32,057 bases of DNA from Candidatus Berkelbacteria bacterium (lineage in GTDB: Bacteria > Patescibacteriota > UBA1384 > 2-12-FULL-50-11), in the NCBI GenBank assembly GCA_024654065.1, contig JANLIQ010000047.1:1-32057 (forward strand), given 5' to 3'. The translations under genes and the position numbers were made by a program. Each line of letters starts with the position of its first letter. Position 1 is the first letter of the stretch. Shown here in pieces: positions 3,604-31,659 of the stretch. The notes under the pieces were generated by a model. The model searched no databases, was not told where the DNA came from, and worked only from the letters and a program-made list of their open reading frames with translations.

Positions 3604-5310
3604 TTATTTCTTCAGTAACTCCACGAACACTTCGCTCGGTACTTCGACCCGACCAAGTTGTCGCATTCTTTTTTTACCTTTGCGCTGTTTGTCTAGCAGT
3701 TTGTTTTTTCGTGTTACGTCACCACCATAGAGTTTAGCGGTGACATCCTTACGCACAGCCGATATATCACTTCGGGCAATTATCTTTCCTCCAATAGCCG
3801 CCTGAAGTGTGACTTCGAAATTCTGACGAGGGATTAACTCTTTTAGTTTTTCAACCAATCGGCGACCGTAGGATTCCGCCTTGCTTCTTACCATGTATTG
3901 AGTTAAGGCATCGATCTTATCTCCCGCCACAAGCAAATCAACGGCGACTAAGTCTGCTGGTCTGTAATCTTTAAGTTGGTAATCCATGGATGCATAGCCA
4001 GAAGTTACGGATTTTAATTTGTCGTAAAAATCACTTATAACTTCCGAGAGTGGCGCTTCGTAGTGGCAAACCACTCGATCGGCAACATACTCAACATTAA
4101 TAAATACGGCTCTATTTTGAGAAACCAGATCACTAACTGCACCGTAATGCTCCTGGGGGCAAACCACTTCCAGCTCCACCCACGGCTCCATCCATTGCTC
4201 ATCCTCCTGTTTGTAGGCTACTGATGGGGTTGTTACTAGGATATTGATGTCAAACTCTCTATTAAGTCGTTCTTTTATAATCTCCAGATGAAGCAGTCCT
4301 AGAAATCCGATGCTGTAACCTGGGCCCAAAGCTTTTGAGCTAACTGGCTCGTAGGAAAGCGAGGCGTCGGAGAGTTTAAGTTTATCTAATGCTACCGTTA
4401 ACTCTCGTTCCTTACCTGGTTCAGGAAAGAACGAAGCGTAGATCATTGGTTTTGAGGTTTTGTACCCTGGTAGAGCGCTTGTCGCACCGGAGGCAACAAT
4501 TGTGTCACCAACCCGACAATCATGAACCGTTTTTAAGCCGGTCGCGACATAACCAATCTCACCACTTTCCAGGTGTCCGTTATCTATTCTTTTTATTTGT
4601 AGGTACCCAGACTGAAGACAGTCAAAGGCGGCACCAGTTGCTTTCATCAATAACGGTTGGTTCTTCTTTAAGTGACCGCTCACAACCTTTACGTAAGCAA
4701 CGACGCCTAAGAATACATCAAAAAAAGAATCAAAAACCAACGCTTGTAGCGGTTCCTCTGGATGCGGTTTGGGTGGAGGGATCCTTTTAGCAATCGCCTC
4801 TAATAACTCATCAACTCCCTCACCAGTTTTACCAGAAACAAAGCAAATATCATCCTCATCACATTTCAGAGCTTTTACTAATTGTTGGGCAGTAACTTCT
4901 GCTTGGGCATGAGGTAGATCTATTTTATTAACAACCGGGACAATTACTAAGTGGCTATCTTTGGCTAAGTGAAGGTTTGTTAGAGTTTGGGCTTGGATAC
5001 CCTGGCTGGCGTCAACAAGCAGCAACACTCCCTCAACCGCTGCGAGCGAACGAGAAACTTCGTAACCGAAATCTACATGTCCCGGAGTGTCTATTAAGTT
5101 TAGTTGGTATTTTTTACCATCGTGCTCATAAAACATTCTGGCAGGATTAAGCTTTATGGTGATACCTTTTTCCCGCTCTAATTCCATGGTGTCGAGTAAT
5201 TGATCTCCCGAGCCGACCTTAACTGTGCCTGTTTTTTCAAGCAAACGATCGGCAAGCGTTGACTTACCGTGATCTACATGAGCAATAACAGCAAAATTCC
5301 GAATCTCCAT
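3604..5310 (-). CDS. lepA: elongation factor 4
   Basis: IAHVDHGKSTLADRL, full-length GTPase with C-terminal GGDVTRKNKLLDKQRKGKKRMR. Confidence 0.97.
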   Translation of the reverse strand: MEIRNFAVIAHVDHGKSTLADRLLEKTGTVKVGSGDQLLDTMELEREKGITIKLNPARMFYEHDGKKYQLNLIDTPGHVDFGYEVSRSLAAVEGVLLLVDASQGIQAQTLTNLHLAKDSHLVIVPVVNKIDLPHAQAEVTAQQLVKALKCDEDDICFVSGKTGEGVDELLEAIAKRIPPPKPHPEEPLQALVFDSFFDVFLGVVAYVKVVSGHLKKNQPLLMKATGAAFDCLQSGYLQIKRIDNGHLESGEIGYVATGLKTVHDCRVGDTIVASGATSALPGYKTSKPMIYASFFPEPGKERELTVALDKLKLSDASLSYEPVSSKALGPGYSIGFLGLLHLEIIKERLNREFDINILVTTPSVAYKQEDEQWMEPWVELEVVCPQEHYGAVSDLVSQNRAVFINVEYVADRVVCHYEAPLSEVISDFYDKLKSVTSGYASMDYQLKDYRPADLVAVDLLVAGDKIDALTQYMVRSKAESYGRRLVEKLKELIPRQNFEVTLQAAIGGKIIARSDISAVRKDVTAKLYGGDVTRKNKLLDKQRKGKKRMRQLGRVEVPSEVFVELLKK

Positions 5311-10961: not shown

Positions 10962-10985
10962 TCTAATGTGGTATACCATATTAGA
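10962..10985. repeat. 24-bp near-perfect palindrome, operator-like
   Basis: TCTAATGTGGTATACCATATTAGA, 11 of 12 symmetric pairs match. Confidence 0.7.
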
Positions 10986-11084
10986 AAAGTATGTCTCCCG
11001 TATATTGTAAATGTGCGCTGTGAGACTAGATTTTTGACTAACTTTTCGATACAATTTGGCGGCTGGAATCATTTCGGCAGGAGG

Positions 11085-11663
11085 ATGTCTGTGCTCAAGC
11101 TCTTTTGCACCGCTCTCTACTTGCTGTGCGTCGGCATTGCCAATGCACAGCTCGTCAACACGATCACCTTTGATGACCTTAGCGAAGGTCAACACGTGGA
11201 ATCGAACCACTACCTTGCCCAAGGTGTGGTGCTATCTTCACAGCCGACCGGTTACCTCTACGGCTCTGGGTCGCATCAGAGTACGGGACAAGCCCTATGG
11301 GTGAATGGGAATGGCGTCGATAGGAAAGAAGTTTCCATCACCTTTTTCCTTCCCGGAACTTCAAGCATGGGGACTATCGACGAGTTCTATACGTTAGTAC
11401 GCGCACCAGGTTCCTGGACCGTTGAATATTGGGGTCCATTCGGAGAGTTCTTTGGAAGATACGCAAGCAACGATCTTGGCGTCGGGACGACCTTTGCCCA
11501 AGGAATGCATCCGCATCGATTGCTGTTCTACGGAGAGATTCCATGGTCAGAGATCTCGATCGACGACTTTCAATTCAGCGACATAGCCCCCGTTCCCGAA
11601 CCGGCAACGATCGGGCTGATTGGGTCAGCCTTGGTACTCGCTGCCCGGCGTCGACGACGCTGA
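11085..11663 (+). CDS. PEP-CTERM sorting-signal protein
   Basis: ATG 11085 directly after AGGAGG-like SD; signal peptide; C-terminus VPEPATIGLIGSALVLAARRRRR*. Confidence 0.88.
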   Translation: MSVLKLFCTALYLLCVGIANAQLVNTITFDDLSEGQHVESNHYLAQGVVLSSQPTGYLYGSGSHQSTGQALWVNGNGVDRKEVSITFFLPGTSSMGTIDEFYTLVRAPGSWTVEYWGPFGEFFGRYASNDLGVGTTFAQGMHPHRLLFYGEIPWSEISIDDFQFSDIAPVPEPATIGLIGSALVLAARRRRR

Positions 11664-12275: not shown

Positions 12276-12827
12276 TTAATGTGGCCGTTTTTGGGCTGCT
12301 TGGGCTTTGAGCTGGAAAATTTCTGAACCAATCTTACCGATTAGAAAGCTTTTTGGTACTGGTCCCCAGGCTCGGGAATCTGAGCTAGCAATACGGTTAT
12401 CTCCAAAAACAAAGTATTCATCAGTTTGGAGAGTTCGTGTTAGCTCACTTGAGGTTGTAACTTCGTTAGGGATGTAACTCTCTTCTAGGTGAGCTCCGTT
12501 TATAAAAACCTTACCATCACTAACTTGAATAGTTTCTCCCGGTAATCCTACGATTCTTTTTATAAAACGTTTTTCTGTTTCACCTGGCCAATACATGGCG
12601 ACTACATCACCACGAGCTGGGGGAGTATAGCGATAAGCAATTTTATTAATTATTAGTACTTCGCCATCAGTAAAATTAGGTAGCATACTCTTTCCCCTAA
12701 CTACCAAAACAGTAAAGAAGAAATAATGCGTCAGTAATCCCAGGATCAACAAAACAGTAGCGATTTTTGAAAAATCGTATACCCATCCCGTTACCCAAAA
12801 CAGTTTTTCAATTTTTTTAGGCGGCAT
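12276..12827 (-). CDS. lepB: signal peptidase I
   Basis: GKSMLPNF, KRIVGLPGETI, YFVFGDNRIASSDSRAWGPV. Confidence 0.95.
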   Translation of the reverse strand: MPPKKIEKLFWVTGWVYDFSKIATVLLILGLLTHYFFFTVLVVRGKSMLPNFTDGEVLIINKIAYRYTPPARGDVVAMYWPGETEKRFIKRIVGLPGETIQVSDGKVFINGAHLEESYIPNEVTTSSELTRTLQTDEYFVFGDNRIASSDSRAWGPVPKSFLIGKIGSEIFQLKAQAAQKRPH

Positions 12828-15800
12828 GCTTTGCTACTTTTAGTGTAGCAAAGACTGAGCGAAGATCTTCGTCTTCGAGAGTTTCTTTTTCCAATAACTC
12901 ATGTGCCATATGGTGAAGAACTTTGATTTCTTTCTTTAATAAGGCAACTGCCGTCTTCCATCCATTATCAATTAAACGACTAATTTCCTCATCGATTTTA
13001 GCTGCAACTTTTTCTGAATGAACTCGGTGCATACCCATTTCACGTCCCAAGAAAACCATCTCTTCACGTTCACCGAGCTTAACTGGTCCTAACTCACTCA
13101 TGCCATAAACCATAACCATGTTACGGGCGATCTCGGTCGCTCGCTCTAAGTCATTCGAAGCACCCGTCGTAACCTCCTTGAAGATCAGTTCTTCGGCTGC
13201 CCGGCCTCCGAGCAAACGAGCAAGCTCGTGCTCAAACTGGCTTTTTGGAATTAGTTTATTATCTTCTTTCGGTAAACTTAAGGTGAAGCCAAGGGCCATA
13301 CCACGGGAGATTATCGAAACTTTGTGGACTTCATCAGCATCAGCAAGCAGATGCCCAACAATAGCATGCCCAGCTTCATGGTAGGCAACGATTTCTTTTT
13401 CTTTATCTTTCATTAAATGACTGGTCCGTTCCGGACCGAGTAGCACTTTTTCAATAGAATTGCGGAAGTCTTTTTGTTCAAGTTTCTTGCGATTATCGCG
13501 AGCTGCCAAAATGGCTGCTTCATTGGCGACATTTCGTAAATCCGCTCCCGATAAGCCCGGGGTACTCTTAGCCACTTCCTCTAAATTAACATCTTTGCCT
13601 AGTGGCTTATTTTTAGAGTGGATTGCTAAAATCTCGGCCCGTTCTGGACGATCGGGCATATCTAAAACAACCTTGCGATCAAATCTGCCGGGACGAAGCA
13701 GGGCCGGATCCAAGACATCAGCTCTGTTCGTCGCGGCCAGAACTACAACATTTGCCTCGGTATCAAAACCATCCATCTCCACCAAAATTTGATTGAGGGT
13801 TTGTTCGCGTTCGTCGTGCGACCCGCCTAAACCGGTGCCACGCTGGCGACCGACCGCATCAAGTTCGTCGATAAAAATAACGGTTGGGGCAGTCTTTTTG
13901 GCCTTAGTAAATAAATCACGGACTCGGCTATTGTGAAGTAATACTGGCTTTTCTCCTCCGAAGAAGGCCTCGTTGTCAACTCCGCAAAGATCGTAGACAT
14001 AACCGTCGTATGGTTTCTCAACAATCTCTTTAATCGTTGTTTTACGACCGAAATCCGTCTCCAAGTCACCGGTCAGATGGTTGGCTGATTTTCCGATGGT
14101 AATTCGGTAATGCGTAGTGTCCGGGAGCGGAGACTTACTATTTTTTATATACCGGCCACCGTCTTGCTCATATTTGGTAACACTACAAGGCATGCCATGC
14201 ATGTGGAGAAGCCACGACAATTCGCTGATGAGTTGCGTCGAGCAGGAAGTCAACTCTATTAACCCCTTTTTACCTATATGTCCGTCCCCCTCTACAAGTC
14301 CATCGAGATAACTAATGAAATATTCTCTCGGCATGTCCCACATAAACTCTGGGACGTGCTTATTGTGTGCTCCTTCTCCACAGTGACTTGCGAAGAAACG
14401 TGTTAAGGGAACAGAATAAAATTCGATTTGCATCGCATTGTTCTTGGTTGGCGAGAAATGGGGATTAATATTGAATACTCGTCGCATTAAATCTACACAA
14501 TCACGATGGAGTTCTCTTTCATAAATCGCAAAACCAAATTTAACTGCTCTTCCATGATGCCAACCTTCAGCCGCATAATAACCAAGCAGCTTACAAAGAT
14601 CTCTTGTAATAGGAACGGAGTAAGTAAGTGTGTCAGTGGTATTTGCAATAACAGCGGTAACCGGTGAACTAACTGACCTAGTTACCAAGCCTGCTGATTG
14701 AAACGCATGGGCGACAGAACGGGGGACGAAACGATATTCTAACACCCCGTTTTTGACTGGCTCAGATATCCATACCGGCAATCGATTATAAGGAAGTCTT
14801 GTTGGAAACGGATGACTCTTAATTTTGTGGGTCGTGCCTACACCGGGAATAAATAGACTTCGGGTTTTATACGGAAGACTAACAAGCGTATCGCCAACTT
14901 TTAACTCATCAGTCCGTTTGGAAACTATGTAATTTTTTTCGCGAACAAAAACGCTGTGATCGGCCGTAACAGCTATATTACCGCCCGTGAACTTAATCTC
15001 ATATATTTTATTGACTCGGTGGCGATAGACCGCTCCGATTTTCTTCCATGCACTCGATCCGAAGAACTTGTTGCCACGGGCAAAATCGACTCCAATGGTT
15101 TGCGCGCCGACAACTGGAACAGTGAAACCTTCTTGATCGTCTTGGTAAAATTGATCAATAAATTCCCCGATCGGTAGAAGTTTCGTCGAATTCTTGTGCT
15201 TAATAAGGATTTTTGTATCAGGATGAACGCTCGCTCCAACTCCGACGAACATTTCCACAAATTCTGATGCTGATATTGAATAAAACGGTACACCGGCTTC
15301 ACCGGCGACGGCTTTGGCGAGCAAGGTTTTACCGACACCGGCCGGCCCGACCAACAAAACCCCGCGAGGAATTTCAGCGCCAAGAGCTTTGAATTTGGCC
15401 GGATTCTTTAAGAAATCAACGACCTCGACCAATTCTTGTTTAACATGCTTCATGCCGGCGACATCCTTGAAAGTAACACCTTTCTTGCCGTCGTCCAGCC
15501 GAGCCGTGGTTTTACCAAACGACATCGCTTGATTGTTACCCGAGCGAGCTTGGCGGGTCATAAAGTAAAGTAGTCCGCCAATGAGTAGAAACGGTAGGAA
15601 AACAGTTAGTAAGGTCGTCCAGAGGGCACCAGAGTCGGGATTTTTGATATTAACCGTTACTTTATCGCCGGTGATGCCGTAGTCTTTCAATCCTTGACTG
15701 GCTTCTTTGTAGGCAACGAGTTGAATTTTATCTTTGGTAACCGCAGTTATTTTATTACCCTCAACAATTATCTGATCGACGCGTCCATCGCTAACTTCTT

Positions 15801-15936
15801 TGACGATCTGCGAGATGGCAACGTCTTGAGTCGGCTTGGTTTTACCGACACCAAACAAACTCCAGGCAATCGCCATAATAAAAACGATTGTCAGGACTGA
15901 AAACAACTGACGGGAAAATCTGTTTCGTACAGGCAT
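12817..15936 (-). CDS. ftsH: FtsH AAA+ zinc metalloprotease interrupted by an intein
   Basis: [29 protein letters not shown]; start taken at MPVRNRF (15936), supported by a promoter 7 nt upstream. Confidence 0.96.
13930..15231 (-). mobile_element. 434-aa LAGLIDADG intein in FtsH
   Basis: In-frame insert between FVGVGA and SRVRDLF; begins [10 protein letters not shown], ends VLLHN/S; DOD motifs LLGYYAAEG and LDGLVEGDG. Confidence 0.95.
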
Positions 15937-15943
15937 ATTCTGA

Positions 15944-15972
15944 ATTCTAGGGTAAAGAACCAGCAAAATCAA
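15944..15972 (-). promoter_or_regulatory. ftsH promoter (leaderless)
   Basis: Minus strand TTGATT, 17 bp, TAGAAT, 7 nt, ATG 15936. Confidence 0.75.
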
Positions 15973-16029: not shown

Positions 16030-16102
16030 AGCGGGGTGGAGCAGTGGTCAGCTCGCGTGGCTCATAACCACGAGGTCGTTAGTTCGAATCTAACCCCCGC
16101 TA
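16030..16102 (+). tRNA. initiator-type tRNA-Met(CAT)
   Basis: AGCGGGG/CCCCGCT acceptor, D stem GAGC/GCTC with A11:U24, anticodon arm CGTGG-CTCATAA-CCACG, T arm GTTAG-TTCGAAT-CTAAC. Confidence 0.9.
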
Positions 16103-17757
16103 CGAGACGGGACTGTATAAGTAGCTTCCAATGACTTATATGGTTCACGTAACAGATATTGCTTGACCCCTCTATCTGTTACGAAAAAGTTCGAGAAAAT
16201 AGAACCAAGTATTATATCTAAATGTCTCAAAGTGCGTGCATGAGATATTTTTTCAGGTATAGACTTAAAAAGTTCGAGAAAATCGCTGTATGTGGGTAGT
16301 GCCTTCTTGGAAATCTCTATAGCTTCTCTCGTTTCCATAATCGTACTGTCAATTTCTGTTAATCGGCTCTTCAATTGGCCAACATCTTCTTCAAAGGTTC
16401 TCTTTACTTGAATATCGCTGGTTTGCGTCCTGTCCACAGCCTTACCTAGCTCAATCTTTATCTTCTCCCTCTCGTTAAGGAATCCTGTTAATTGATGCTC
16501 TAGCCTCCGCTTGTTTGTCTTAGCTTCAGACATTAAGACGTTTATATACTCATTAAAAGTTCCCTCTGTTGCCAGTTGCAGATTGCCCAGTGTTCTCACA
16601 GCAAACTCTGTAACTACACGTGCCTTGACATGCAGCCTTTTTCCCAGTTTCTTTTTAAAGCTACATTCAGTGTTATCGCATCTGTAAAAAAAGTAAGCCG
16701 TCTGTTTGCCATTTGAATTCTTCTTGGTTAGAGTTGCATGCATCGACGACTCACAGTAGCCACAGAAGACTTTCCCGTTCAGTAATCTAGCTACAACATT
16801 ACCTCTCGTTTTCTTGTCTCTCATAAACCCACTAGCCTTACCGCTATGGTTTAATCTGATATATTCCTCACGGGTTATCATGGGTTCGAAATCAAAACTG
16901 TCACTAAGGATAGTTGAGTCTGTTCCGTGGTGAGCTATTCCACAATAAACAGGGTTTGAAAAAATCCTTGAGAGCTTCTGTTTTGACCAAACAAAGTTTC
17001 TGTGCTCAATGACGCCTATGCCCTTTGCTTTTTTGTAATCTGATTCGTTCAGAAACTTGGCGATTTCTTTTTGTCCACAGCCCTCTAGCCTGAGTTCAGA
17101 TGCTCTCTTGATTAACTCGTGGTTTCTACCATCGGGTCTAAGGAATCTACCTCCGTCTTTAAAGTAGCCGTGTGTATCAGGTATTGATTTACCTGATTTT
17201 AGCGTGCTTTTATTGCCACTCTTAACATTTACGCTTAAGTTATCTGAATACTGCTTACTAACGGCGAATGTTATCGCTAATAATAACTTCCCGCTCGGTG
17301 AATTCTCAAAGCTGTAACTAACAAATTTCAAATCACGAATTAAACCCTCATCTAACATCTCAATTATTTCACCAGCATCTTTCATGTTCCGACTCAATCT
17401 ATCAGGATGCCATGATATTACGCCATGTATACGCCTTAACTTTAATTGATTGATAACCCAATCGAACTTTGGTCTAACCCCAGATTTCTTTGCGGATTTC
17501 GTTTCCTCAATTGTTTCTATCACTCGCAGGCCTTCTCTCGCAGCCAGCTCTTCACACGCCTCCCTCTGTCGTTCGATGGACTTAATTTGTTTCTCGTTAT
17601 CCTCGGTTGACTTCCTGGTGTAAATCACATACTTATAATTCTCGGGTTCAATCTGGTTTTTTCTAGACAAAACTTCTAGAGCATCAAGCCGGCTAATAAT
17701 TTCTTCGGGAGTGACGGTCTTACCACTTCCGTTGGACGGCACAGTCATACTAGTCAA
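16090..17757 (-). CDS. large serine recombinase (resolvase + recombinase + zinc beta-ribbon domains)
   Basis: YVIYTRKSTEDNEKQIKSIERQ, WHPDRLSRN, CGYCESSMHAT...CDNTEC; stop codon lies inside the tRNA. Confidence 0.95.
   Translation of the reverse strand: MTSMTVPSNGSGKTVTPEEIISRLDALEVLSRKNQIEPENYKYVIYTRKSTEDNEKQIKSIERQREACEELAAREGLRVIETIEETKSAKKSGVRPKFDWVINQLKLRRIHGVISWHPDRLSRNMKDAGEIIEMLDEGLIRDLKFVSYSFENSPSGKLLLAITFAVSKQYSDNLSVNVKSGNKSTLKSGKSIPDTHGYFKDGGRFLRPDGRNHELIKRASELRLEGCGQKEIAKFLNESDYKKAKGIGVIEHRNFVWSKQKLSRIFSNPVYCGIAHHGTDSTILSDSFDFEPMITREEYIRLNHSGKASGFMRDKKTRGNVVARLLNGKVFCGYCESSMHATLTKKNSNGKQTAYFFYRCDNTECSFKKKLGKRLHVKARVVTEFAVRTLGNLQLATEGTFNEYINVLMSEAKTNKRRLEHQLTGFLNEREKIKIELGKAVDRTQTSDIQVKRTFEEDVGQLKSRLTEIDSTIMETREAIEISKKALPTYSDFLELFKSIPEKISHARTLRHLDIILGSIFSNFFVTDRGVKQYLLREPYKSLEATYTVPSRSGG
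16184..16283 (+). repeat. two copies of a 17-bp direct repeat
   Basis: AAAAAGTTCGAGAAAAT at 16184-16200 and 16267-16283. Confidence 0.9.
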
Positions 17758-18259
17758 ATTCCTTTTTAGCCAGTTTCGCTAAGCTTTCATCATCGATTCG
17801 GAGTTCTTTCTTCAGCGACTCCACAATCTCTTGCCCTCTACTAATCGATACTTCGCAAGTTGCCTTCAGGTCAAATTCATCTCTTCGTTTACGTTCCAAG
17901 TACCACATTGCCACTTTTGGGTTACCGAGATTGTCCACGATAGTTTGTCTAGCTTTTAGTATCGGGGCTGTTTTAAAAGCCTCTTTTTCCTGACAGAACT
18001 TCGGATACTTAACTTGGTAGCGGTACAAGGTTCTGTCAGAGATGTGGGCATAGGTACAAGCTTCTACATCGCTACAGCCCCACAGAAAAGCTTCCTGAAG
18101 CCGTATTAGAACATAGGGAGTAATAACAGTCGGGGCACCACCTTTAGGGCGAGTAGAAAGCTTCTCATGCTCGTCTTCAAGTCCTGTCTTCGGCATCAAG
18201 TGTGACAAATCAAGAACCGGTATATCTATCGCCATCTCTTCAACCGCTGACTGCTCCAT
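17750..18259 (-). CDS. helix-turn-helix phage/element-type DNA-binding protein
   Basis: VITPYVLIRLQEAFLWGCSDVEACTYAHISDRTLYRYQVKYPKF...LKARQTIVDNLGNPKVAMWYLERKRRDEF; overlaps recombinase start. Confidence 0.65.
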   Translation of the reverse strand: MEQSAVEEMAIDIPVLDLSHLMPKTGLEDEHEKLSTRPKGGAPTVITPYVLIRLQEAFLWGCSDVEACTYAHISDRTLYRYQVKYPKFCQEKEAFKTAPILKARQTIVDNLGNPKVAMWYLERKRRDEFDLKATCEVSISRGQEIVESLKKELRIDDESLAKLAKKEFD

Positions 18260-18313
18260 CTGTTAGCAGTTAAGCACTTAGATGGAGGTGGGGGAAGAAC
18301 TTGGAACTGAGAG

Positions 18314-19030
18314 CTATTTTGGCTCAGGCTGAAGATGTATATCTTTTTCGGTGATGCTCTTTTGGATGGCCGGATGGATGTAGGCACTGCCACCAGCTCG
18401 TAGCTGGTTAAGAACGGGTTGGTACTCTAAATTCTTCCAGTTGTACTTCAGAAATTCTTCCTTAGACATAAATATCACAACGGCATCATCAGTCTTTTTA
18501 TTGCCATAAGTGTCAGTAAAGTCAGTTTTAAACTCAACTTCCAACTCGTTAACACCATCAATTTTAAATACCTGGCTGCCGTACCAAACAAAGACAAAAA
18601 CCGCTCCCTTAACTAGACTCTTTTCGTCATAGAAGGTTGGGCTGGTCTTGCTTAAAGTGACAGCCTTTGTTGCTTCACTATAATCTATCGCAATCCCGTC
18701 TCGGTTTTGCTTAATGGCGTCATATGCCACCCATAGCTTGTCTGCAGTTGTTTGTGGCAATGGGACGGGTACTGGTGTGCTTGCCTGTGTCGTAAGACCA
18801 GGCTCATCTGTCGCGGGTTGTTGACTCGCCCCACTACTAGCTTCCTTCCGAGAACCCGTCACGCCAATTGCTATAAAGAAGACCAGGATAGCAATACCAA
18901 AATAAGTGCCAACCTGCTTCCTGGTTAAATCGTGCCCCCTAATCAGTTTTGATAAAAGCTTAGGGCTGATTAACCCTACCGCCAGACCGACCAATGAAAG
19001 TAGAAGAAGTAGTACCAACACCGTACCCAT
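18314..19030 (-). CDS. membrane-anchored hypothetical protein
   Basis: Two N-terminal TM segments, P/T linker, soluble C-terminal domain. Confidence 0.65.
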   Translation of the reverse strand: MGTVLVLLLLLSLVGLAVGLISPKLLSKLIRGHDLTRKQVGTYFGIAILVFFIAIGVTGSRKEASSGASQQPATDEPGLTTQASTPVPVPLPQTTADKLWVAYDAIKQNRDGIAIDYSEATKAVTLSKTSPTFYDEKSLVKGAVFVFVWYGSQVFKIDGVNELEVEFKTDFTDTYGNKKTDDAVVIFMSKEEFLKYNWKNLEYQPVLNQLRAGGSAYIHPAIQKSITEKDIHLQPEPK

Positions 19031-19094
19031 TTACAGATACTATGCTACAAGCTGTCTGTGGAGTCAATATCTCTCGCCCCTTACGGTGACAGGA

Positions 19095-19313
19095 ATGGAC
19101 AAAGCAGAATTTCTAAAGAATTTTGGTCAAAGAGTTTCTAAGGTTCGTAGAGAGAAGGGAATGACTCAGGAAGAGTTAGCAGAGGCCATAGACGTTCACA
19201 GAACGTACGTTGGTTTTATTGAACAAGGAAAGCGAAACCCGCTGATTTTTAATGTTTATAAGATTGCTGAGGTGACGGGTGTTCCAGCATCGGAGTTGCT
19301 TCGGGAACTCTGA
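19095..19313 (+). CDS. XRE-family transcriptional regulator
   Basis: FGQRVSKVRREKGMTQEELAEAIDVHRTYVGFIEQGKRNPLIFNVYKIAEVTG; SD-like AGG before ATG 19095. Confidence 0.9.
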   Translation: MDKAEFLKNFGQRVSKVRREKGMTQEELAEAIDVHRTYVGFIEQGKRNPLIFNVYKIAEVTGVPASELLREL

Positions 19314-20315
19314 TTATCTGTTTACATAGTATCTCTGAAGAACCTTGACTAGAAATGCCCGCAAGAAATTGGGGAAGTAATCCAAGAGTCTGTTTGCTCG
19401 TTCGACTCTACTTGGCGGGAGAAAAGTATCACCACGCAGAATCATCTCCCTCTCATAAGGGTAGAAGCTAGCCAAGAATGACCTTCTGCGTCCGTCTCTA
19501 ATCTGTGCTTTCGTAAAGCAGTCACGAAAGCCAATAACACCTCTATCCTTCCTAACGATAAGCTTAACTTTAATGCTTAGCTCTCTATCGAAGTAAAGAC
19601 TCGAGGTTCGGGCAACTCGAACTGTCCTCGGCTTACTGTACCGTGCCCTGTGAAGGTCACTTAACATAACCAAGACCTCATAGTAAGCAAGAGCCTTATT
19701 AATGAGCGTGTGCCCTTCCTCGCGACTATAGATTCTGTTACCCCTTTCTATTTGGATGTTAGAGTTGTCGATGGCGTATTCAGAATGGAAGATGGCGTTT
19801 CTCAGCCTGAAATCGACAAACTCATAGAAATTTGGAATTTCGACATTGAGAGTCACGGCTTTCGCCTTGATTATTTCGATTTTTTTCCAGACCGGAACCG
19901 GTGTTGGCCTCCCGTCAGTAACATCATCGGGAAAGTTATCAACTGAAAAGTTCTGGTCGTCGAGAATGTTTAATAGATTTGCCATTAACTCGTACAAATC
20001 CGTTGATTCAATAATCAGGCCGTACGCAAAAAGGTGAACATGTAATACGAGTTGGTGGTCGAATTTGTTTACTTTCTTTACTTTGTTGACGGCATCGGTC
20101 ACTTCTTTCAAATTCTTCAGAGCGTCCCATGACGAATCAAGGTCTCTTATTCGCAATATCGTTCTGATGAATTCAAATTCGTTCTTCCTCTTCGCAAGAG
20201 TAAATAGGTAACTTAGGCAGTCGAGGTATTTGGTTATTCCTTCAGCATACGAGGAATGAACGCCTCTCAGAGGAGTTTTTAATCTAAACCTCCCCCGTTC
20301 TTCGATAAGAATCAT
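19314..20315 (-). CDS. hypothetical protein with HEPN-like Rx4H motif
   Basis: FRLRNAIFHSEYAID inside an alpha-helical protein. Confidence 0.55.
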   Translation of the reverse strand: MILIEERGRFRLKTPLRGVHSSYAEGITKYLDCLSYLFTLAKRKNEFEFIRTILRIRDLDSSWDALKNLKEVTDAVNKVKKVNKFDHQLVLHVHLFAYGLIIESTDLYELMANLLNILDDQNFSVDNFPDDVTDGRPTPVPVWKKIEIIKAKAVTLNVEIPNFYEFVDFRLRNAIFHSEYAIDNSNIQIERGNRIYSREEGHTLINKALAYYEVLVMLSDLHRARYSKPRTVRVARTSSLYFDRELSIKVKLIVRKDRGVIGFRDCFTKAQIRDGRRRSFLASFYPYEREMILRGDTFLPPSRVERANRLLDYFPNFLRAFLVKVLQRYYVNR

Positions 20316-20343
20316 CAGTAGGTCGAGAAGTTTTGTGCTATGG

Positions 20344-20502
20344 TCACTTCTTGACTATATTCTTAGGGTTTTCGTTCAAGTTTATAACTTCGCCATTGTC
20401 GCCAATAACTTGGTTTTCAGATGGGGGAGGGGAGCTAGTGTCAATTGACTGCAAAGTATTTGCTAGTTCTGCAATATCGCTTGGTCTCTCTTCGTTTTCC
20501 AT
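20344..20502 (-). CDS. 52-aa small acidic protein (not in supplied ORF track)
   Basis: MENEERPSDIAELANTLQSIDTSSPPPSENQVIGDNGEVINLNENPKNIVKK*; 28 nt upstream of the HEPN-like gene, same strand. Confidence 0.6.
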   Translation of the reverse strand: MENEERPSDIAELANTLQSIDTSSPPPSENQVIGDNGEVINLNENPKNIVKK

Positions 20503-20588
20503 TCTAGTCAGATACTAGCACTTCTTTTCTTTTTTACACAATCACGAAATATCCTATTCCCCAGTTCGAGAGATTTAGTGTTGATAAC

Positions 20589-20732
20589 CTACAAGACTGA
20601 AGACGGCACAAGTTCACCTGGCTCGCCTTCTTCCTGGGTTTGCATATGACGTAAGTTTTCTACAGCCTCGGCTATCTTCATATGTGCTTTCTTGATAAAA
20701 TTCAGAAGTTCGAGAGAAGTCCAGTTATGTCT
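20589..20732 (-). other. orphan 3' coding tail of the serine recombinase (joined only in the excised circle)
   Basis: Open frame RHNWTSLELLNFIKKAHMKIAEAVENLRHMQTQEEGEPGELVPSSVL* continues in the recombinase frame across CTACGAGA. Confidence 0.7.
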
Positions 20733-20737
20733 ACGAG

Positions 20738-20769
20738 AAGAAAAACCAGTCGAAAGACTGGTTTTTCTT
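20738..20769 (+). terminator. Rho-independent terminator, probably the ancestral tRNA-Met terminator
   Basis: Perfect 14-bp stem AAGAAAAACCAGTC-GAAA-GACTGGTTTTTCTT. Confidence 0.85.
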
Positions 20770-20798: not shown

Positions 20799-20871
20799 GC
20801 CGGCGTAGCTCAGTGGTTAGAGCGGACGTTTCATAAGCGTCAGGTCGGAAGTCCAATTCTTCCCGCCGGCA
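20799..20871 (+). tRNA. tRNA-Met(CAT), elongator type
   Basis: GCCGGCG/CGCCGGC acceptor, GCTC/GAGC D stem, anticodon loop TTCATAA; T loop TCCAATT (C at 55). Confidence 0.88.
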
Positions 20872-20884
20872 CAATTAGTTATAG

Positions 20885-31313: not shown

Positions 31314-31623
31314 TCTGGGGTAGCTCAGTGGTAGAGCGGTCGACTGTCAGATTGGCAGCCCGGTCGAGAAATCGATCGGTGATAATTGGGAGAATTGCGG
31401 GAAACCTAATCGAAAGAATGGCAATCCGCAGCCGAGCCCGAAAGGGAAGGTTCAGAGACTACCTACTTTTTCAAGAAGTAGGGTATCGGATTAAGTTCGA
31501 TATTAGCACCCAATACCTAAATTCACCGTTAGGTGGACATGGTAATGAGATAGTCCGCTCCACTAAGAAATTAGTGGGTAACGTGTAATCGATTGGTCGT
31601 GGGTTCGAATCCCACCCCCAGAG
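31314..31623 (+). tRNA. tRNA-Asn(GTT), interrupted by group I intron
   Basis: Exons TCTGGGGTAGCTCAGTGGTAGAGCGGTCGACTGT / TAATCGATTGGTCGTGGGTTCGAATCCCACCCCCAGAG form a complete cloverleaf. Confidence 0.93.
31348..31585 (+). ncRNA. group I self-splicing intron (238 nt, no ORF)
   Basis: 5' exon CUGU pairs with IGS GCAG (U.G at splice site); AATTGCGGGAAACC, AATCCGCAGCC, CAGAGACTACC, GAGATAGTCC core segments; terminal omega-G. Confidence 0.92.
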
Positions 31624-31659
31624 CAAGAAAGTGTCTAGAATAGAATCAGGATTGAATTC

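Follow-up and report, generated by a model that had tools for sequence, protein, structure and literature searches.

A large serine recombinase element at the 3' end of an initiator-type tRNA gene, and its tRNA-linked relatives in Patescibacteria

Background

Can a large serine recombinase (LSR) place its own element at a tRNA gene, and if so, is such a case isolated? According to the working rule, tRNA genes are the sites of tyrosine integrases, and island finders excluded serine integrases accordingly (PMC4383910). The question is raised by a tRNA-Met gene in the window analyzed here (the whole stretch of 32,057 nucleotides), the contig of which belongs to a 770-kb genome. Those of its relatives that carry names in public records are Patescibacteria.

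The occupied tRNA gene and its empty counterparts

The element sits between an initiator-type tRNA-Met(CAT) gene (16030..16103, forward strand; tRNA prediction, Rfam RF00005 with 68.9 bits), which is intact in its occupied state, and the intrinsic terminator belonging to that same gene (20738..20769, forward strand). The latter is a perfect 14-bp inverted repeat (20738-20751 and 20756-20769) that the element has split from its gene. By strict identity the boundaries are two copies of CTACGAGA on the forward strand: the attL core across the tRNA 3' end (16100..16107) and the attR core at the far side (20731..20738), yielding an element length of 4,631 bp between the copies. The next chromosomal gene past the element is a second tRNA-Met(CAT), of the elongator type (20799..20872, forward strand), which is syntenic in the related genomes G001 and G003.

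A base pair A11-U24 is typical of bacterial initiator tRNAs and C11-G24 of elongators. The D-stem of the target tRNA has A11-U24, accompanied by G30-C40 and G31-C39, and C11-G24 can be read from the sequence of the second tRNA. The target departs from the initiator textbook at position 29-41 (U-A) and is without the 1-72 mismatch; judged from these features, the label 'initiator-type' seems fair but not textbook.

A repeat of 8 bp could by itself arise by chance. The insertion boundaries are settled not by this repeat alone, which would be insufficient, but because G001, the sole same-genus genome reached for comparison, shows the empty site. Here the end of the initiator tRNA (...CCCCCGCTACGA) joins AAAGAAAAACCAGTCGAATGACTGGTTTTTCTT directly, without any element, AAAGAAAAACCAGTCGAATGACTGGTTTTTCTT being the terminator that stands 4.6 kb away from the tRNA in the window. 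Counted from CTACGA, 63 of 68 bases are identical between G001 and the right flank of the window, against matches of 9/30 and 7/30 (chance level) for the sequence immediately inside the element ends. An empty site (tRNA, then terminator) is present as well in five genomes of the same family (G002, G004, G005, G006 and G007). Together, the CTACGAGA repeat and the empty site meet the LSR criterion of precise insertion with a short common core.

Given these comparisons, we estimate a probability of about 0.87 that the segment of 4,631 bp represents an integrative element and that its own LSR inserted it site-specifically where the initiator tRNA gene has its 3' end. Neither excision nor a circular form was seen, and a search of IMG/VR for a free circular form gave only 5 weak matches and no close relative of the LSR.

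The first-pass annotation had proposed a serine-recombinase element of ~4.6 kb at this tRNA 3' end, and had predicted that without it the tRNA would precede the perfect 14-bp terminator. The boundary repeats and the empty site in G001 bear out the former, and the same terminator directly after the tRNA in G001 the latter. Relatives lacking the element, which it advised looking for, do exist in the genus (G001) and the family (G002, G004, G005, G006 and G007), and in G003 an initiator tRNA is likewise occupied, by an element of 4.6 kb whose recombinase is homologous (49% identity). A constant set of genes from one tRNA-Met to the other among relatives would have refuted the proposal, but this set turned out to vary.

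The recombinase and the other genes of the element

The recombinase (555 aa; 16090..17757, reverse strand) matches PF00239 (1.9e-23), PF07508 (1.9e-10) and PF13408 (4e-6), and its domain order (Resolvase, Recombinase, Zn_ribbon_recom) satisfies the architecture criterion for an LSR. The active-site criterion is met too: the catalytic Ser50 as well as R48, R120 and R123 are invariant across 14 homologs. Among solved structures, the closest in sequence are catalytic domains of serine recombinases, TP901-1 integrase included, and a Phage_integrase domain is lacking in all 5 element ORFs, so that the tyrosine-integrase criterion for Islander-type islands is not met. The reading frame passes through attL and its stop codon lies within the tRNA gene. 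Recombinase and tRNA are convergent, as first annotated; the overlap, then given as 13 bp, is 14 bp when the stop codon is included (16090-16103).

Next to it lies a gene for a 169-aa helix-turn-helix protein (17750..18259, reverse strand) similar to phage terminase small subunits (phrog_4102, 2e-19). A 238-aa protein (18314..19030, reverse strand; phrog_8263, 7.7e-5) has no assigned function and shows, by eye, N-terminal membrane segments. The element further encodes a 72-aa XRE-type regulator (19095..19313, forward strand; HTH_3, 3e-16), for which the start was set at an internal ATG of the ORF 18906-19313, and a 333-aa cargo protein (19314..20315, reverse strand) without family match. The cargo protein is absent from all other loci compared outside the source genome; proteins similar to the XRE regulator are present at other loci. 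No universal upstream gene common to the elements was found, and several small helix-turn-helix families recur. For LSRs in general, integration is unidirectional and excision needs a directionality factor. From its sequence, the 169-aa protein is a candidate regulator, directionality factor or TerS.

PICI-like satellites are small islands with an integrase, a repressor and terS, packaged by a helper phage. It is possible, if doubtful, that the element is such a PICI-type satellite, packaged by a patescibacterial phage; this would be compatible with site-specific integration by its own LSR. The combination of 4.6 kb with an LSR, a TerS-like protein (phrog_4102, 2e-19) and an XRE regulator fits the idea, and TerS-like proteins occur near the LSR also in G003 and at the loci L180 and L248. 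Nonetheless, TerS-like helix-turn-helix proteins may be mere DNA-binding regulators, no helper phage is known and IMG/VR holds no close relative of the LSR.

A second occupied site and the history of the locus

In G003 (BroJett034, BOKZ01000001.1), which represents another genus of the same family, the same tRNA is filled by an LSR with 49% identity to that of the window. The element measures ~4.63 kb and its cargo is non-homologous to that of the window element. Since the tRNA is filled in the window and in G003 and empty in G001 and five family members, the locus is a real integration site; as far as these sequences tell, it has been filled at least twice, or once with complete turnover of the cargo.

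The 8-bp CTACGAGA of the window comprises tRNA positions 71-74 plus 4 nt downstream. Directly before it in attR, only 4 of 15 bases match the expected tRNA fragment (counted by eye), which is the chance level and leaves a crossover in the T-loop unsupported for this element. The data leave two options, a crossover of the window LSR at the acceptor end, or a decay or rearrangement of attR.

It might be argued that we see an insertion that is old and immobile, or an ancestral gene block, inherited vertically and with the recombinase as a relic. Two observations would agree with this: the window genome and G003, of one family, both carry a related LSR at this tRNA, and attR is without a T-loop fragment. 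The idea is, however, hard to reconcile with the empty site in same-genus G001 and five family members, with LSRs only 49% identical and non-homologous cargo in the two occupied genomes, and with an intact recombinase ORF that has conserved active-site residues. We consider this explanation improbable and retain site-specific integration by the element's own LSR.

Survey of LSRs at tRNA and tmRNA genes

For the seed survey, 289 relatives were searched with the window LSR, followed by tRNA prediction around the matches. (A single-protein search of genome contigs gave nothing; a 14-row profile reached 142 relatives.) After extension with 80 named loci, 151 distinct LSRs were scored, 11 of which were cut by contig ends, leaving 140 scoreable; the source sequences are mostly metagenome-assembled. 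As many as 121 of these 140 stop in a convergent tRNA/tmRNA gene or no more than 300 nt from its 3' end: the stop codon is inside the gene in 112 cases and at most 300 nt away in 9, with neither observed in 19. The tRNA/tmRNA-linked LSRs of the seed survey use 33 target types. Among the 289 relatives, homologs were seen at tRNA-Met, Pro, Asp, Ala, Gly, Gln, Leu, His, Ser and Asn and at tmRNA, and in the seed search those ending at tRNA/tmRNA genes are always convergent with them. The absence of stop codons before the tRNA was discarded as evidence, being a selection artefact (only overlapping ORFs had been counted); the fair measures are the 112 overlapping against 9 near cases and the tight motif spacing described below.

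Because this survey is biased, its query being itself a tRNA-linked LSR, we took a second sample with Pfam PF07508 over 287 genomes of the phylum. In this sample, drawn by the Pfam domain alone, 38 of the 67 scoreable patescibacterial LSRs are tRNA-linked, compared to 12/46 in a control phylum (that of an Elusimicrobia genome) run through the same pipeline. An archaeal phylum, tried as a second control, provided only 5 LSRs in 3 genomes.

A tree was made of 249 LSRs, with phiC31, Bxb1 and TP901-1 included and without phiRSM1 and the recombinases of the mycobacterial tRNA-Leu AICEs. Of the 166 tRNA-linked LSRs on the tree, 157 fall into a single clade with 192 members (support 99), against 9/51 tRNA-linked outside the clade (Fisher 2e-17). 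The split persists when only the Pfam-drawn samples are considered (36/52 in the clade, 9/51 outside; Fisher 1e-7), and the tRNA-linkage label needs 35 changes on the tree where shuffles need at least 54. Sequences of the control phylum occur inside the clade, 6 out of 8 being tRNA-linked; the clade is therefore not confined to Patescibacteria. No tRNA was detected for 35 of the 192 clade members. Some of these unlinked LSRs have tRNA remnants or intron-bearing tRNAs.

Crossover position and attP

An exact-repeat search was run over all loci, where most far ends were outside the available DNA or without a long repeat; for most tRNA-linked LSRs the far-end repeat was thus not located in the DNA at hand. 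We kept att pairs that are at least 82% identical over the stretch between position 56 and the end of the tRNA, a threshold chosen because null repeat searches already reach 12-16 bp. Eight pairs were found, two of which were dropped as complete tRNA genes, so that six elements could be read: L106 (tRNA-Pro), L104 (tRNA-Ala), L108 (tRNA-Gly), L195, L113 (tRNA-Leu) and L099 (tRNA-Met, in G003). The identity of the displaced fragment starts at tRNA position 56 in five of them and at 58 in the one from G003, and extends, perfectly or with at most 2 mismatches, to about the acceptor end. To the left of this start it is at chance level, save for 6 bases at one spot in L108. The Islander-type criterion (an intact tDNA on one side and a displaced piece of its 3' part on the opposite side) is met in these six relatives.

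In attR, everything to the right of the exchange point stems from the former chromosome, so that the crossover can be read from where identity begins on the left; in the six relatives it would accordingly fall in the T-loop, near the middle of the T-stem dyad. The T-arm is plausible as the attB core because serine recombinases act as dimers on sites of rough symmetry, but this part is inferred.

In the middle 80% of 74 LSRs, 90-113 nt separate the last conserved motif of the recombinase (FSNF-like) from the tRNA 3' end, and this tight spacing implies that attP has a nearly fixed place in the 3' end of the gene. We infer that attP lies within the recombinase gene and that integration would exchange the C-terminal residues. 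The tails predicted for the circular form (47 aa for the window, 30 aa for G003) are dissimilar across elements. This rules out a conserved C-terminal extension in the circular form and suggests that a tail so poorly conserved probably serves no function.

The mechanism that we propose is inferred throughout. An LSR dimer would bind the T-arm of the tRNA gene, a natural dyad, and cut close to the centre of the T-loop. The attP of the element would bear the 3' part of the tRNA, so that the tRNA is restored on integration; as attP would lie in the last codons of the recombinase, its C-terminal residues would be replaced by ones encoded by the tRNA antisense strand. With some reserve we favour the view that an LSR clade, common in Patescibacteria and also present in a second phylum, has specialised on a T-arm attB with near-centre crossover and an in-gene attP, so that gene and site travel and retarget together, which allows the clade to spread to at least 33 target types. 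That the recombinase does not target tRNAs and used the terminator or other nearby sequence, the tRNA being incidental, is hardly credible: the strict repeat of the window does cover only the last 4 tRNA bases and 4 downstream, but 112 related LSRs end within tRNA/tmRNA genes, with 33 target types overall, and the displaced fragments of six relatives start at tRNA position 56 or 58.

Comparison with known systems

The LSRs of TP901-1, Bxb1 and phiC31 resemble that of the window in their Resolvase, Recombinase and zinc ribbon domains, the invariant catalytic serine and a short boundary repeat, but they fall outside the 192-sequence tRNA clade; the best phage LSR matches are only ~22-25% identical. 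Islander-type islands share the target (tRNA/tmRNA 3' end), the restoration of the gene by the element (inferred here) and, in the relatives, the displaced tDNA fragment at the far end. They use a tyrosine integrase, whereas the window element and its relatives use a serine recombinase.

Serine recombinases at tRNA genes are rare according to Ghinet and colleagues, who list phiRSM1, which uses tRNA-Ser, and eight AICEs of mycobacteria, located at tRNA-Leu (PMC3218068). The phiRSM filamentous phages of Ralstonia employ a serine recombinase with a 13-nt attP/attB core identical to the tRNA-Ser 3' end, their Int being small and resolvase/invertase-like (PMC3816273). They differ from the window element in the small enzyme, the filamentous phage and the use of one tRNA only. 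The mycobacterial AICEs have a serine recombinase at a tRNA as in the window, but concern 8 closely related enzymes and one tRNA. In the streptococcal rumA ICEs, with a single serine integrase, the integrase gene contains attP at its 3' end and C-terminal ends are exchanged (PMC4701971); an in-gene attP is also what we infer for the LSR group described here, but the target of the ICEs is a protein gene and not a tRNA.

The remark in the first-pass annotation that LSRs seldom use tRNA genes thus reflects the literature (PMC4383910, PMC3218068) but does not hold in Patescibacteria, where an entire clade of LSRs departs from it. We found no literature report of tRNA-targeting LSRs in this group, with preprints and most subscription journals outside our search. 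Later island surveys may contain such LSR sites without comment.

Conclusions

The window case belongs to a large, largely unremarked group of LSRs. Here the serine family has converged on the target of tyrosine integrases with a parallel layout of integrase gene, tRNA 3' end and displaced fragment. This makes it a testable question whether tRNA genes attract integrases through the chemistry of the enzyme or through the T-arm as a conserved dyad. If our reading is true, serine integrases directed at conserved tRNA sites would be on offer, and many islands in Patescibacteria would have been overlooked.

Group I introns in tRNA genes

The right end of the window carries a tRNA gene that is split by a group I intron (31314-31624; assigned to Thr(tgt) by ARAGORN), the intron being 238 nt long and matching RF00028 with 74.9 bits. 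A closely similar counterpart of this split tRNA was found on another contig of the same assembly (L393, contig C24 of G000, about 52-900), where the intron measures 538 nt against 238 nt in the window copy and encloses an HNH-like reading frame. Here another large serine recombinase (LSR) terminates at the 3' end of the split tRNA. Possibly, this is a strain variant.

Possible repeated insertions, and further genes of the window

At the tRNA-Met locus of the same-family genome BroJett034 (L099 of G003, 4844-4904), the displaced 17-bp tRNA fragment is present twice, with the copies 44 bp apart, as if two successive insertions had entered one tRNA. At a further locus (L101, 3531-9052), a tandem pair of tRNA-type LSRs lies downstream of a single tRNA-Pro; these look like stacked elements.

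Within the window itself, the FtsH gene (12817-15972) contains an intein with a LAGLIDADG domain, and 10968-11663 encodes an exported protein of the PEP-CTERM type, a rare sight in such a genome.

The initiator tRNA of a same-genus genome

In G001, a genome of the same genus, a group I intron about 248 nt long interrupts the anticodon loop of the initiator tRNA (L061, contig C27, 929-1382); the intron matches RF00028 with 43.7 bits, a score below the gathering score. Given that the window's initiator tRNA carries an LSR element, one and the same tRNA gene has been struck both ways, in different genomes.
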